DNA of 33,075 nt from Hoeflea sp. (GTDB lineage Bacteria; Pseudomonadota; Alphaproteobacteria; Rhizobiales; Rhizobiaceae). A model generated the notes under the pieces. The model worked only from the letters and a program-made list of their open reading frames with translations, was not told where the DNA came from and ran no database searches. The stretch spans positions 1 through 33,075 of the forward strand of contig NZ_JACIYP010000060.1 of NCBI RefSeq assembly GCF_014359905.1, written 5' to 3'. The position numbers and the translations under genes were made by a program. Positions 21,285 to 25,778 of the stretch are shown here, piece by piece; positions within the stretch are counted from its first letter, which is position 1; each line of letters opens with the position of its first letter.

Positions 21285-22742
21285 TCACACCCCGCTCGCC
21301 GGAATGCCGGAGCGCTCCACCTTCCTTGGCGAAGTGAGTTCCTTCCAGGTCGACAGGGCCTTGTTGGTCGGCGTCACCGGTTCGCGGGCGACGAATTTGC
21401 CGTGGCCTTCCTGGGTCCGAATCTCGCCGTCATGCACGGCGACATGGCCGCGGGTGAGCGTGTAGCGCGGCAGGCCCTTGACGTGCTTGCCCTCGAAGAC
21501 GTTGTAGTCGATCGCCGACTGCTGCGCCGAGGCGGTGATGGTCTTGGACTTCTCCGGGTCCCAGACCACCAGATCGGCATCGGCGCCGACCAGCACTGCG
21601 CCCTTCTTCGGATAGCAGTTCAAAATCTTGGCGATGTTGGTCGAGGTGACGGCGACGAACTCGTTCATGGTCAGCCGTCCGGTGGCCACACCATAGGTCC
21701 ACAGCATCGGCATGCGGTCCTCGAGACCGCCGGTGCCGTTCGGGATCTTGGTGAAATCGCCGACGCCGAAGCGCTTCTGCTCGGTGGTAAAGGCGCAATG
21801 GTCGGTGGCGACCACCTGCAGCGATCCGGCGGACAGTCCGGCCCACAGCGAATCCTGGTGCAGCTTGTTGCGGAAGGGCGGGCTCATCACCCGGCGCGCG
21901 GCGTGGTCCCAGTCGGGATGGGCATATTCGCTCTCATCGAGCGTGAGATGCTGGATCAGCGGCTCGCCCCAGACGCGCATGCCCTTCTGGCGGGCGCGGC
22001 GGATCGCCTCGTGGCTCTGCTCGCAGGAGGTGTGCACCACGTAAAGCGGGGTTCCGGCCATGTCGGCGATCATGATGGCGCGGTTGGTGGCTTCGCCCTC
22101 GACTTCCGCCGGCCGCGAATAGGCGTGCGCCTCCGGGCCGTTGTTGCCCTCGGCGAGCAGTTTCTGCTGGAGCTGCGCCACCACGTCGCCGTTTTCGGCG
22201 TGAACCAGCGCGATGCCACCCAGTTCGCCGATGCGGCTGAAAGAGGCGTACATCTCGTCGTCATCGACCATCAGCGCGCCCTTGTAGGCCATGAAGTGCT
22301 TGAAGGTGGTGATGCCCTTGTCCTTGACCACAGTCTCCATCTCGTTGAACACCTGCTCGCCCCACCAGGTGATCGCCATGTGGAAGGAATAGTCGCAATT
22401 GGCCCGGGTCGACTTGTTGTCCCACATGGTGAGCGCCTCAAGCAGCGACTGGCCTGGGGCGGGGAGCGCGAAATCGATCACCATGGTAGTGCCGCCCGAA
22501 AGTGCTGCGCGGGTGCCGCTTTCGAAATCGTCGCTGGAATAGGTGCCCATGAACGGCATCTCGAGATGGGTGTGCGGGTCGATGCCGCCCGGCATGACAT
22601 AGCAGCCGGTGGCGTCGAGCGCGGTGTCGCCCATCAGATTGGGGCCGATGGCTGTAATGACGCCGTTCTCGATCATCACGTCCGCCTTGTAGGTCAGGTC
22701 GGCGGTGACAATGGTTCCGTTCTTGATGACTGTGGTGCTCAT
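21285..22742 (-). CDS. hydA: Dihydropyrimidinase (D-hydantoinase)
   Basis: The 485-residue cytosolic enzyme opens dihydrouracil or dihydrothymine to N-carbamoyl-beta-alanine or N-carbamoyl-beta-aminoisobutyrate. The binuclear metal site is visible: H57-T-H59 in PGGIDPHTHLEMPFMGT, the carboxylated Lys154 in KHFMAYKGALMVDD, LVHAENGDVV, YVVHTSCEQ and the final aspartate in VVATDHCAF. The ending, KVERSGIPASGV, is usual for the family. GGGGAG is placed 9-14 bases before the ATG and lies inside the 3' end of the DUF559 gene, whose stop overlaps this ATG by 4 bases. It is central to the pyrimidine reductive pathway in this operon. Confidence 0.95.
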   Translation of the reverse strand: MSTTVIKNGTIVTADLTYKADVMIENGVITAIGPNLMGDTALDATGCYVMPGGIDPHTHLEMPFMGTYSSDDFESGTRAALSGGTTMVIDFALPAPGQSLLEALTMWDNKSTRANCDYSFHMAITWWGEQVFNEMETVVKDKGITTFKHFMAYKGALMVDDDEMYASFSRIGELGGIALVHAENGDVVAQLQQKLLAEGNNGPEAHAYSRPAEVEGEATNRAIMIADMAGTPLYVVHTSCEQSHEAIRRARQKGMRVWGEPLIQHLTLDESEYAHPDWDHAARRVMSPPFRNKLHQDSLWAGLSAGSLQVVATDHCAFTTEQKRFGVGDFTKIPNGTGGLEDRMPMLWTYGVATGRLTMNEFVAVTSTNIAKILNCYPKKGAVLVGADADLVVWDPEKSKTITASAQQSAIDYNVFEGKHVKGLPRYTLTRGHVAVHDGEIRTQEGHGKFVAREPVTPTNKALSTWKELTSPRKVERSGIPASGV

Positions 22743-23194
22743 GATGGTGCTCCCCGGTGAAGGCGATGGTTTGCTCCCTCTCCCCGTCGGGGAGAGGGAT
22801 AGGAAGGCACTGCGAAGCGAAGCTGAGCAGATGCCTGAGTTGGGTGAGGGGGCTCGAGGCGCCCTTCAAGTGCGGCAAGGATCGTTTCCAAAACTGCGCC
22901 GCGCTCGAACACGACTTCGTCGTTCCAGAACCTCAGCACGCTGTAGCCGTTCTGTGTCAGCCAGGTCGTGCGCCGTGCATCGCTGGCCTCGTTCAGGGCG
23001 TGGTGGCTGCCGTCGAGTTCAACGATCAGCTTCTCGGTGCGACAACAGAAATCGCAGATATAGGATCCGATGCAGACCTGCCGGGAGAAGCGGTATCCGT
23101 TCAGAAGGCGGTTGCGAAGTTCGTTCCAGAGCCAGTGTTCTGCATCGGTGGGCTGTTTGCGCATGTTGCGCGCCAAGGCTTTGGTCGCGGGCAT
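22739..23194 (-). CDS. DUF559 protein (Vsr/PD-(D/E)XK endonuclease-like)
   Basis: With the ATG at 23194 the product is 151 residues. The DUF559 core spans about 1-112: ARNMRKQPTDAEHWLWNELR, then GYRFSRQVCIGSYICDFCC, LIVELDGSHH carrying the acidic catalytic-type residues, and VLRFWNDEVV. DUF559 adopts a Vsr-like endonuclease fold; the cellular role is not established. The last roughly 35 residues (YPSPRRGEGANH) are read through a CTCTCCCC-type hairpin, so the frame runs into the flanking repeat and happens to stop on the hydA start. The frame is also open upstream of 23194 through the other repeat (PLPPGERSGAATRRPGE), which is not part of the domain. It interrupts an otherwise catabolic operon. 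Confidence 0.85.
   Translation of the reverse strand: MPATKALARNMRKQPTDAEHWLWNELRNRLLNGYRFSRQVCIGSYICDFCCRTEKLIVELDGSHHALNEASDARRTTWLTQNGYSVLRFWNDEVVFERGAVLETILAALEGRLEPPHPTQASAQLRFAVPSYPSPRRGEGANHRLHRGAPS
22776..22798. repeat. CTCTCCCC/GGGGAGAG hairpin, left
   Basis: CCCTCTCCCC (22776-22785) pairs perfectly with GGGGAGAGGG (22789-22798) around loop GTC. It lies 34 bp upstream of the hydA start codon, inside the 3' coding end of the DUF559 frame. No T tract is present on either strand. Confidence 0.9.
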
Positions 23195-23244
23195 CGGTTT
23201 CGGGGCCGAGACCCGCTCACCCGGTCGCCGCGTTGCGGCGCCCG

Positions 23245-23267
23245 ACCTCTCCCCGGGGGGGAGAGGT
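23245..23267. repeat. CTCTCCCC/GGGGAGAG hairpin, right
   Basis: ACCTCTCCCC (23245-23254) pairs perfectly with GGGGAGAGGT (23258-23267) around loop GGG. Next to it is a second small perfect hairpin, CGCCGC-GTT-GCGGCG (23226-23240). It lies upstream of the DUF559 ATG. Confidence 0.9.
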
Positions 23268-23324
23268 GCTTGGCCTCTGGCGCTGGGCGGTTTCGCAATC
23301 ATTTCGCTGATCTAGCCCTCGCGA

Positions 23325-24086
23325 TCACTCGGCATAACCCGGGTTCTCCCGGTCGAGCACCAGTTTCATTTCCTCGAAATGCGAGTACTCGGCGTCCTTG
23401 TAGACGTCCCATTCCCGCGCCACGGATTCGGCGAGCTCGTCGCTCATCACGTTGAGCGGCTGGCCGGTGGAATAGGCGAGCACCATGGTCCGCGCCGCGC
23501 GTTCGAGGTGGTACATGGCGTCGAAGGCCTCGGCCACGGTTGGCGCCACGGTAGTGACGCCGTGGTTGGCCATCATCACCACGGAATGATTGCCGACTGT
23601 GGCGGCGATGCGTTCGCCCTCGGCTTCCTCTGAGGCGATGCCGCCGAAGCTCATGTCCATGGCCATGCGGTTGAAGAAGCGCGCGGTGACCTGGTCGATC
23701 GGCTTGATCGACGGGTCCTTGAGCGTGGCGAGCGTGGTGGCGTAGGGCGGATGCAGGTGCAGCGCCACCCGCGCATGCGGCACGTTGCGGTGGATGGCCG
23801 AATGGATCGACCAGGCTGAGGGATCGGGCGCATCCGACCGCTTCATCGTGTCGGGATCGTCGGCGTCGACCAGCAGCAACTCGCTGGCCTTCGCGCGGGA
23901 GAAATGCTTCCAGCGCGGATTGACCAGGAACTTTTTCCCGTCGGGCGAGACGGCGGCGGAGAAATGATTGGCGACGCCCTCGTGCCAGTCGTAATAGGCG
24001 GCGAGGCGGAGCGCGGCGGCGAGATCGATGCGCAACTGCCGTTCGTCGGGCTCGACTGCGGGTCGCAGGGAATGAATTTCAGCCAT
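23325..24086 (-). CDS. Class II aldolase/adducin family protein
   Basis: The 253-residue protein belongs to the class II aldolase/adducin domain family, zinc enzymes related to fuculose-phosphate aldolase. Visible motifs are RLAAYYDWHEGVANHFSAAV near residue 30, FLVNPRWKHFSRAKASELLL, the metal-binding ALHLHPPYATTLATL and ANHGVTTVAPTVAEAFDAMY. The ATG at 24086 (MAEIHSLRP) has GAGGA upstream; the longer frame adds 10 non-conserved residues. The reaction is unknown. It is not a standard step of pyrimidine catabolism, yet it sits between the amidohydrolase and dihydropyrimidinase genes on the same strand. Aldol cleavage or decarboxylation of a side product is possible. Confidence 0.85.
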   Translation of the reverse strand: MAEIHSLRPAVEPDERQLRIDLAAALRLAAYYDWHEGVANHFSAAVSPDGKKFLVNPRWKHFSRAKASELLLVDADDPDTMKRSDAPDPSAWSIHSAIHRNVPHARVALHLHPPYATTLATLKDPSIKPIDQVTARFFNRMAMDMSFGGIASEEAEGERIAATVGNHSVVMMANHGVTTVAPTVAEAFDAMYHLERAARTMVLAYSTGQPLNVMSDELAESVAREWDVYKDAEYSHFEEMKLVLDRENPGYAE

Positions 24087-24158
24087 GATTGTGTCCTCGC
24101 GTGAGATGGCGTGCACAGTTCGGATGCGATGATGCTATCACGCCGGGCCGGATCGTGC

Positions 24159-24274: not shown

Positions 24275-24478
24275 TCAGACGTCGACCAACCCGAGCCGCT
24301 TTTCGATGTGGGAAACGCGTTCATCCATCCGGTCGAGCCGGTTGGACAGGTTGGCATACTGCATTTCGATAATGCCGAGCCGACCTTTGATTTCCCGCAG
24401 GTCTTCCGAATGCTTGTCCTGCGTCGCGCGGATGGCGCGAAGATGCTCAAGCACGAGGTTTTCGGTCGACGGCGACAT
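24275..24478 (-). CDS. Small coiled-coil protein of unknown function
   Basis: The 67-residue protein starts MSPSTENLVLEHLRAIRATQ. From about residue 15 to the end it is a heptad-like amphipathic helix (DLREIKGRLGIIEMQY, LSNRLDRMDERVSHIEKRL) ending LGLVDV. It has no membrane segment or known catalytic motif. The chosen ATG has GGAG nine bases upstream; a longer frame starting MRWWRLPGWW overlaps the amidohydrolase 3' end and lacks such a site. Similar short coiled-coil proteins are familiar in rhizobial genomes, but I know no function. It lies between the amidohydrolase and class II aldolase genes on the same strand, about 50 bases after the former. Confidence 0.7.
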   Translation of the reverse strand: MSPSTENLVLEHLRAIRATQDKHSEDLREIKGRLGIIEMQYANLSNRLDRMDERVSHIEKRLGLVDV

Positions 24479-24527
24479 GGCCGTGGCTCCAGAGGTCTGA
24501 CAATGTCCCAATATAAGGCCATCCGCG

Positions 24528-25778
24528 CTATTCCACCACCCCGGCAGTCTCCACCACCGCATGCATCAACACGTCTGCGCCGGCGGCCGCCCATTCCTTG
24601 GTGATTTCCTCGGCCTCGTTGTGCGACAGGCCGTCGACGCAGGGGCACATGACCATGGCGGTCGGCGCCACGCGGTTGATCCAGCAGGCCTCGTGGCCGG
24701 CGCCGGAGATGATGTCCATGTGCGAGTAGCCCAGCCGCTCCGCGGCGTCGCGGACGGCCTTGACGCAATCATGATCGAATTCCGGCGGGTCGAACTGGCC
24801 GACGATCTCGGACTCGAACTCCAGGCCGAGATCGGCGCAGAGTTTCGGCGCCTCCGCCATCAGCCGCTCGGCCATGCCGTTCAGCGTGTCGATCTCATGG
24901 CTGCGGAAGTCGATGGTGAAGACCACCTTGCCGGGAATGATGTTGCGGGAATTGGGGTAGACGTCGATGTGGCCGATGGCGCCCACGGCGTTCGGCGCAT
25001 TGTCCATGGCGATCCGGTGCACCAGCTCGGTGATCTGGGCCAGCCCGCGGCCGGCGTTCCTGCGCATCGGCATCGGGGTCGAGCCGGTGTGGCTTTCCTT
25101 GCCGGTCACGGTGCACTGGATCCAGCGCAGGCCCTGGCCGTGGGTGACGACGCCGATGTCCTTTCCTTGCGCTTCCAGGATCGGGCCCTGTTCGATATGC
25201 AGCTCGAACAGCGCATGCATCTTCCTCGCGCCCACTTCCTCGTCGCCCTTCCAGCCGATGCGTTCCAGCTCGTCGCCGAAGCGCTTGCCCTTGGCGTCGG
25301 TCCGGTCATAGGCCCAGTCCTGCTCAAGCACGCCGGCGAAGACGCCCGAGGCGAGCATGGCGGGGGCAAAGCGCGTGCCTTCCTCGTTGGTCCAGTTGAC
25401 CACCACGATCGGATGTTTCGTCCTGATGTCGAGGTCGTTCAGGGTGCGGACCAGCTCGAGCCCGCCCAGCACGCCGAGCACGCCGTCATACTTGCCGCCC
25501 GTCGGCTGGGTGTCGAGGTGGGAGCCGACATAGACCGGCAGGGCGTCGGGATCGGTGCCGGGCCGGGTCATGAACATGTTGCCCATGGTGTCGACGCCCA
25601 TGGTCATGCCTGCGTCCTCGCACCAGCGCTGGAACAGCTTGCGGCCCTCGCCGTCCTCGTCGGTAAGGGTCTGGCGGTTGTTGCCGCCGGCAACGCCGGG
25701 GCCGATCTTCGCCATCTCCATGAGCGAATCCCACAGCCGGTCGGCGTTGATGCGGAGGTTGGCGGCGGGTGCGGACAT
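24528..25778 (-). CDS. pydC: Zn-dependent N-carbamoyl amidohydrolase (beta-ureidopropionase type, M20 family)
   Basis: The 416-residue enzyme belongs to the M20/HyuC-AllC amidase group. Metal ligands are visible: H87 in YVGSHLDTQPTGGKYDG, D98, and E132/E133 in VVVNWTNEEGTRFAPAM. HIEQGPILEAQ carries a further ligand histidine, and SGAGHEACWI lies near the C-terminus. GGNNRQTLTDEDGEGRKLF is the usual N-terminal family motif. By operon context it should hydrolyse N-carbamoyl-beta-alanine and N-carbamoyl-beta-aminoisobutyrate to the beta-amino acid, CO2 and ammonia. N-carbamoyl-L-amino-acid hydrolase or allantoate amidohydrolase are the alternatives within the family. GAGGAG seven bases before the ATG overlaps the stop of the small membrane-protein gene. 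Confidence 0.9.
   Translation of the reverse strand: MSAPAANLRINADRLWDSLMEMAKIGPGVAGGNNRQTLTDEDGEGRKLFQRWCEDAGMTMGVDTMGNMFMTRPGTDPDALPVYVGSHLDTQPTGGKYDGVLGVLGGLELVRTLNDLDIRTKHPIVVVNWTNEEGTRFAPAMLASGVFAGVLEQDWAYDRTDAKGKRFGDELERIGWKGDEEVGARKMHALFELHIEQGPILEAQGKDIGVVTHGQGLRWIQCTVTGKESHTGSTPMPMRRNAGRGLAQITELVHRIAMDNAPNAVGAIGHIDVYPNSRNIIPGKVVFTIDFRSHEIDTLNGMAERLMAEAPKLCADLGLEFESEIVGQFDPPEFDHDCVKAVRDAAERLGYSHMDIISGAGHEACWINRVAPTAMVMCPCVDGLSHNEAEEITKEWAAAGADVLMHAVVETAGVVE

Follow-up and report, generated by a model that had tools for sequence, protein, structure and literature searches.

The window, by which we mean the whole 33,075-nucleotide stretch of contig NZ_JACIYP010000060.1 from Hoeflea sp. 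(Rhizobiaceae; assembly GCF_014359905.1), contains a small gene for a predicted endonuclease of the DUF559 family, which lies in a pyrimidine/hydantoin-type operon, with a class II aldolase gene on one side and hydA on the other, and which carries a palindromic repeat at each end. The pairing of DUF559 genes with such repeats is well supported by the comparisons described here, and we suggest that the gene and its repeats may form a minimal genetic element. The features of the locus are as follows:

22739..23302, minus strand: predicted DUF559 (YcjD/Vsr-like PD-(D/E)XK) endonuclease open reading frame (ORF), 187 amino acids (187 codons)
22865-23185, minus strand: DUF559 domain (Pfam DUF559, E 3.5e-41)
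22775..22799, plus strand: hydA-side repeat, hairpin 1, with 12-bp arms, TCCCTCTCCCCG/CGGGGAGAGGGA
22800..22841, plus strand: hydA-side repeat, spacer of 42 nt, second hairpin possible
22842..22852, plus strand: hydA-side repeat, purine tail GGGTGAGGGGG, which mirrors the hairpin purine arm
23246..23266, minus strand: aldolase-side repeat, hairpin 1, with 9-bp arms, CCTCTCCCC/GGGGAGAGG
23223..23245, minus strand: aldolase-side repeat, second hairpin, TCGGGCGCCGCAACGCGGCGACC on the minus strand
23212..23222, minus strand: aldolase-side repeat, purine tail GGGTGAGCGGG, interrupted by one C
21285..22742, minus strand: hydA, for a dihydropyrimidinase/hydantoinase-like amidohydrolase; belongs to the host operon and lies downstream of the cassette
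23325..24116, minus strand: gene of the class II aldolase/adducin family, given as its longest ORF; belongs to the host operon and lies upstream of the cassette

The repeat unit has the same build on both sides, with a hairpin whose 5' arm is all pyrimidine outermost, then a spacer in which a second hairpin is possible, and then a purine tail nearest the gene. An initial annotation of this DNA had described a perfect 10-bp hairpin on each side; the hairpins are there, but the length was only roughly right, as the arms are 12 bp on the hydA side, where they are perfect (22775-22786/22788-22799), and 9 bp on the aldolase side. The GGGTGAG(G/C)GGG motifs which it had placed inside the hairpins in mutually inverted orientation were recovered at 22842-22852 (plus strand) and 23212-23222 (minus strand), and it was also correct that the DUF559 frame crosses one hairpin and stops on the hydA start: the C-terminus of the protein is encoded by the hydA-side repeat and the TGA overlaps the hydA ATG. 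It missed that the inner motif repeats the hairpin arm in mirror order. The aldolase-side tail was not picked up by our tail finder because of the C that interrupts its purine run. The exact hairpin CTCTCCCC-n(2-4)-GGGGAGAG was found at 3 places in the 6.86-Mb assembly, 2 of which are the DUF559 flanks, in comparison to 0 places for a reversed-pattern control. With 552 contigs and 8.29% contamination the assembly is not pure; the cassette is nevertheless not an assembly artefact, since it occupies the same junction in 4 other Hoeflea genomes and a bare spacer is found there in 10 of 18.

The generality of the arrangement was assessed in several sets of loci. The first set comprised 134 distinct DUF559 loci, 45 from 18 Hoeflea genomes and 89 from elsewhere in the class, the latter drawn from part of the matches in 289 genomes, 97 of which had PF04480; these 89 were mostly top-ranked and were picked before their flanks were inspected, and lower-scoring and contig-edge matches were excluded. 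In the inverted-flank test, the 350 bp upstream of the gene was aligned to the reverse complement of the 350 bp downstream with a score threshold of at least 20, and 7 of the 134 loci were excluded for too short flanks. The results showed inverted flanks in 70 of 127 loci in comparison to 2 of 1937 same-shaped control placements within the same loci. For a second set of named loci, at a score of at least 18, the numbers were 43 of 78 and 0 of 4175, respectively, and 41 of 74 when the 4 Hoeflea loci common to the first set were removed. Many of these loci are orthologous: of the 78 named loci, 44 sit at one operon junction and 24 at another. The class subset and the phylum set described next are less affected. 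The dedicated gene-plus-palindrome pair that the initial annotation had proposed was borne out.

A hairpin with a pyrimidine arm was present within 350 bp of 184 of 201 DUF559 loci. In the small-gene control, it was present at 0 of 28 PIN-domain loci (2 of 30 PIN rows and 2 of 80 named rows were dropped), so the hairpins are indeed enriched at DUF559 over other sequence. Their density was 0.78 per locus in the first upstream 100 bp in comparison to 0 to 0.04 per 100 bp past 500 bp. The hairpin was found at 71 of 85 class loci outside Hoeflea, and in a phylum-wide search confined to the top-scoring matches it was found at 27 of 27 newly fetched loci, 14 of which were outside Alphaproteobacteria, which makes the earlier description of the palindromes as alphaproteobacterial too narrow. 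The tails of the main set showed a gene-directed bias (inward-only 233, outward-only 82, both 83). Ordinary terminators or generic repeats were considered as an identity for the hairpins and ruled out on the three exact copies in the genome, two of them at this locus, and on the PIN-domain control. As a separate observation, two loci in genomes of different families (L133 and L140, genomes G029 and G058) have DUF559 directly upstream of an apparent ruvA, with the start judged by eye, and carry repeats of similar type.

Each DUF559 lineage has its own repeat type. Among 75 loci with two-sided repeats, DUF559 pairs from the same genome had a repeat type in common in 7 of 7 cases at 60% identity or more and in 5 of 21 below that value, and for pairs between genomes the numbers were about 49 of 51 in comparison to 7-20%, depending on the identity band. 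Shared coding sequence cannot yield such matching, because the left flank of one locus was compared with the reversed right flank of the other. In 27 of 43 loci, from 19 genomes, the similarity within the locus was greater than that to other loci of its genome (p 0.0025), and the aldolase/hydA junction is filled, depending on the Hoeflea species, by one or the other of two DUF559 lineages that differ in their repeats. These data bear directly on passive accumulation, by which intergenic hairpins would collect beside small dispensable genes of any kind or in particular operons, with no functional tie to DUF559. The repeats are intergenic and the host operon does contain other inserted material, as that explanation would have it, but the PIN toxin-type loci and the control placements were practically devoid of the pattern and repeat type tracks DUF559 lineage inside one genome, and we regard passive accumulation as very improbable.

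The relationship between the purine tail and the hairpin was then considered across 115 distinct asymmetric units. The tail fitted the hairpin purine arm better in mirror than in direct register in 88 units and worse in 8, with 19 ties, and for non-alphaproteobacterial units the mirror was better in 12, the direct register in 4, with 4 ties. An arm G stood opposite a tail G at 754 of 767 positions, and an arm A stood opposite a tail A (140) or T (65) at 205 of 216 positions; since the tail finder takes G-rich strings only, this absolute agreement is inflated, and the fair part of the evidence is the mirror/direct and own/shuffled comparisons, which were run on identical strings. In the permutation, own tails gave a fit of 0.910 in comparison to 0.744 (standard deviation 0.014) for shuffled tails, and 0.931 in comparison to 0.725 (standard deviation 0.023) when one unit per distinct arm was kept (44 arms). 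Mirror copies are not produced by ordinary duplication, and G on G-C with A or T on A-T is the code of the purine-motif triplex; for these two reasons we interpret the unit as a hairpin plus a third strand, and at the window locus it is the mirror relation between the inner GGGTGAG motif and the hairpin arm that makes a triplex possible. This reading was derived from the flank data before any comparison with the published repeats of PMC4666352. Spacer length varies, from 42 nt and 23 nt in the window units to 2-3 nt in Hoeflea type-2 units. At one non-alphaproteobacterial DUF559 locus (L310) we observed an A+T-richer repeat (CCCCTCTTTGCTAAAGAGGG) three times behind the gene; in its tail, by eye, T takes the place of A at mirror positions, a change that the triplex code permits.

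Copies of the repeats also occur away from DUF559 genes. In the 289 class genomes, at least three TCTCCCC-n-GGGGAGA hairpins were present in 24 of the 76 that have a strong DUF559 match in comparison to 3 of the 213 others, and in 23 of 67 in comparison to 1 of 99 for genomes of at least 2.5 Mb, kinship being ignored in both comparisons; a genome was scored positive at a hand-chosen best E of 1e-10 or lower, and 21 genomes with weaker matches were scored negative. In Hoeflea, on the other hand, copies do not track the cognate gene. In one of the genomes rich in these hairpins, 7 hairpin places gave 4 solitary dimers without a gene, the other 3 being single or imperfect, and all 4 dimers read have both ends of the cassette, oriented to each other as in the cassette itself, with identities to the cassette of, for example, 60/66 and 33/35 in one dimer and 54/57 and 36/36 in another. 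RAYT transposases were tried as the source of the repeats and ruled out, as no Y1_Tnp, the RAYT domain, was found in 15 of the 19 genomes examined for it.

The initial annotation had made empty sites at the hydA/aldolase junction a test of its proposal, and these exist. Among the 18 Hoeflea genomes this junction holds the window-type cassette in 5, another DUF559 with another repeat pair in 2, a deleted version in 1, and nothing but a spacer of about 80 bp in 10. In the two genomes with the second DUF559 type, a remnant of the first repeat type adjoins the cassette, and the internally deleted second-type cassette of one genome retains both repeats and the 3' end of the gene. The M20/aldolase junction carries the second type in 4 genomes, a repeat remnant in 1 more, and in 1 further genome a DUF559 59% identical to that of the window with yet another repeat. 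Two further features of the M20/aldolase interval were noted. In Hoeflea G006 (L009) the M20/aldolase interval contains an extra gene of several hundred bp between a direct duplication of the M20 3' end, which suggests an insertion that duplicated its target. In the window, a small ORF lies between the M20 and aldolase genes (24275-24562), with similar sequence, by eye, in Hoeflea G002, G006, G007 and G009 and not in the others.

Of the 78 nearest named relatives, 75 lie in this operon and point the same way as the genes on either side. They are spread over six junctions: M20/hydA 44, ABC/permease 24, aldolase/hydA 3, hydA/ABC 2, M20/aldolase 1, and EamA/permease 1. Many of these loci, M20/hydA above all, are without two-sided repeats. 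Those of them that were placed on a quick tree with the class sample formed one clade (SH-aLRT 96, 105 columns), but the tree does not require many moves. The distribution fits either an old resident that moved locally or a gene order that was rearranged around such a resident.

These placements are what favours a homing-type explanation, in which a free-standing DUF559 would cut at solitary-repeat sites and repair would copy the cassette in through repeat homology, with the repeats serving as landing pads and not being offspring: the cassette of one lineage adjoins the remnant repeat of another at one junction, one clade occupies six junctions of a single operon, and Vsr-related (EDxHD) homing endonucleases, which have a Vsr-like fold and a selfish role, are known. 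Homing leaves the gene-less dimers with both cassette ends and the arm-tail covariation in mirror register unexplained, however, and no site was seen to pass from solitary repeat to filled; we consider it unlikely, though worth keeping in mind.

The protein itself has the pattern expected of an active PD-(D/E)XK enzyme, judging from D84, E95 and D97, which are invariant in 96 aligned relatives. The solved relative 3HRL matched the window DUF559 with E 4.3e-23. The NCBIfam model PRK09767, the Escherichia coli YcjD equivalog, scored 101.5 bits against a cut-off of 218, and the window protein thus belongs to the domain family of YcjD without being its equivalog. The only other match of the protein, to REase_MTES_1575, was under its cut-off, and the PADLOC anti-phage defence models gave no match to it, with short weak DpdF matches in 2 of 3 relatives scanned. 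The 76-bp repeat on the hydA side shows 97-100% identity among five Hoeflea species, in comparison to 52-66% for third codon positions of DUF559 and 73-82% for those of hydA; as its identity lies above that of the DUF559 third positions, the repeat is held tighter than the synonymous sites of the gene.

YcjD was tied to Vsr by profile search in a passage of PMC1189080, and VsrA of Caulobacter is described in parts of PMC12907096 as containing DUF559 and acting in DNA damage. A housekeeping role could be built on these ties, in which DUF559 would clear or repair structures formed by triplex repeats, or carry out Vsr-like mismatch repair, and the flanking repeats would mainly regulate expression of their own gene. 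The conserved acidic residues are compatible with this, as are the several lineages in which only a single flanking repeat was found. Regulation alone, on the other hand, predicts neither inverted repeats at both ends nor lineage-specific types in one genome, nor does it predict look-alike dimers elsewhere, and our estimate is that such a role is improbable.

E. coli offers a natural comparison: its DUF559 gene, ycjD, was found in 3365 of 5426 complete genomes. In the two ycjD-less strains inspected, a TetR/RND efflux operon occupies the site, and eefRABCD is described at that place in a part of PMC12817139. A published table gives 23 repeats for K-12 (PMC4666352), and no. 9 in that Table 1, a K-12 copy at 1 351 204-1 351 239, adjoins ycjD. 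In 60 records spread down the ranking, of which 1 small record was dropped, BoxC-like places numbered 14-33 (median 22, n=37) with ycjD, the ycjD place itself being counted, and 2-19 (median 7.5, n=22) without it, a contrast which is confounded by lineage. At three BoxC sites the repeat is present or absent depending on the strain. At one locus (L346, E. coli O111:H8, hrpB-mrcB) a dimer of BoxC type B and type A was seen reduced to a single hairpin, with 64 bp between the loops lost.

Taken together, we hold it rather probable that DUF559 is a Vsr-like nuclease dedicated to triplex-forming repeats of the BoxC/PIT type, that the gene with its repeats is a minimal element, and that the solitary copies are derivatives of it. 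The element would consist of the gene and two inward-facing repeats, about 500 bp in all, with solitary repeats and repeat dimers as its miniature derivatives, and the nuclease would mobilise them. Each repeat may fold on one strand, forming a hairpin with its tail laid back as the third strand. In a first step the repeat would become single-stranded, for example in replication, and fold; DUF559 would then recognise the fold of its own repeat type and nick or cut at its foot; and repair or replication restart would finally move, copy, convert or delete the repeat or the whole cassette. What the data show is the pair of flanking repeats, their matching by lineage, the covariation of arm and tail, the dispersed look-alikes with both ends, and the sites that are empty or filled in another way; the steps themselves, including any catalysis on the repeats, are inferred, and the most likely mode of action is that the nuclease recognises its own folded repeat on an exposed strand and nicks the foot, after which repair copies, converts or removes repeats. 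It is conceivable, though we lean slightly against it, that the elements constitute a new minimal class of DNA transposon, the sole protein of which would be a Vsr-like PD-(D/E)XK nuclease and the ends of which would be read as intrastrand triplexes, with BoxC/PIT-type repeats across proteobacteria as non-autonomous offspring and ycjD as the resident copy of K-12.

Several results weigh against a dedicated DUF559-triplex element. At the thresholds used, two-sided inverted flanks were absent in 57 of 127 and 35 of 78 loci, no hairpin was found at 17 of 201 DUF559 loci, and the non-alphaproteobacterial loci showed no gene-directed bias of the tails (inward-only 7, outward-only 9, both 17). No clean target-site duplication was found at the aldolase/hydA and M20/aldolase junctions or at the three E. 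coli BoxC sites compared. Genomes G141 and G223, which share a genus, and G187 contain 14, 7 and 9 TCTCCCC hairpins, respectively, with a weak DUF559 match at most; repeats outliving the gene, or another partner, are possible reasons. For three repeat types in Hoeflea, copies were few and showed no clear relation to the cognate gene. The type-2 pattern was matched 16 times, 8 of them exactly, in one genome that has no intact type-2 gene, and the type-4 pattern was present in 15 of the 18 genomes, whereas the type-4 gene was seen in 3. For E. coli, besides the confounding by lineage, O157:H7 has no ycjD yet has 14 BoxC places, and the K-12 ycjD fails both the hairpin finder and the inverted-flank test because its sole BoxC is mismatched and one-sided. 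From the literature, in vivo footprinting gave no support for a stable triplex according to the relevant passage of PMC4666352, and the role proposed for VsrA in the text of PMC12907096 is mismatch repair, unlike a role on repeats.

The pairing gives BoxC, a long-known orphan repeat class, a candidate partner enzyme in DUF559, a nuclease family without a settled function, and hints at where such repeats may originate. It also suggests that triplex DNA may serve cells as a recognition signal. Both questions are open to direct test in a laboratory strain of E. coli, which has the gene and the repeats. What appears to be new here is the pairing of DUF559 with triplex repeats; the BoxC/PIT repeats and their triplex in vitro were already known from the portions of PMC4666352 used here. 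In listings and chosen passages of the full-text literature, with subscription journals mostly missing, no title or passage on a link between DUF559 and triplex repeats was found.

Among the closest known systems are the BoxC/PIT repeats, which were found in E. coli in the 1990s and tied to genome instability, with no gene linked to them and no mobility gene reported near them in the passages of PMC4666352 consulted; its main text contains neither ycjD nor a word starting with nuclease or endonuclease. The E. coli BoxC sequence forms a purine-motif triplex in vitro by circular dichroism and nuclear magnetic resonance (in the same passages). Outside E. coli, repeats of this kind were counted in large numbers in Cyanobacteria and Neisseria by that paper, which dates from 2015. 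Like BoxC/PIT/TM_ECO as described there, the DUF559 repeats are intergenic, have a pyrimidine-purine hairpin followed by a purine tail, and could form a G/C-rich purine-motif triplex; in Table 1 of that paper the tails face each other in 4 of 5 inverted pairs, as read from the coordinates, and 5 of 5 combine type A and type B. The strict TM_ECO consensus has a 3-nt second loop, and the window repeats depart from it, as their second loop is longer. The palindromes flanking DUF559 are relatives of the BoxC/PIT/intrastrand-triplex repeats.

The CGTC-tagged repetitive extragenic palindromic (REP) sequences are alphaproteobacterial palindromes said, in part of PMC3733652, to have no dedicated transposase, and they differ in their CGTC tag and in A and T at the base of the stem; they were set aside, as none was present, by eye, among the flanking repeats inspected, no search being made. 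Vsr acts on T:G mismatches and has an adjoining methyltransferase, whereas the partner found for DUF559, in work that included no methyltransferase search, is a repeat. The RAYT/TnpA_REP transposases with REP and REPIN sequences resemble the DUF559 system in having one gene in inverted palindromes, lineage-specific repeats and miniature dimers (in part after PMC3733652). The RAYT-like character proposed by the initial annotation accordingly stands for the layout, that is, inverted flanks, lineage-specific repeats and dimers, but neither target-site duplication nor transposition was seen. The enzyme is a DUF559 protein of PD-(D/E)XK type and not an HUH tyrosine (Y1_Tnp) transposase, and where RAYT repeats have a GTAG tag at the hairpin foot, the DUF559 repeats end, by eye, in GGGTGAGGGG-like purine runs. 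Because the DUF559 system differs from RAYT in both defining traits, enzyme class and GTAG tag, we do not file it as RAYT, and the best reading is that it is analogous to RAYT and unrelated to it.

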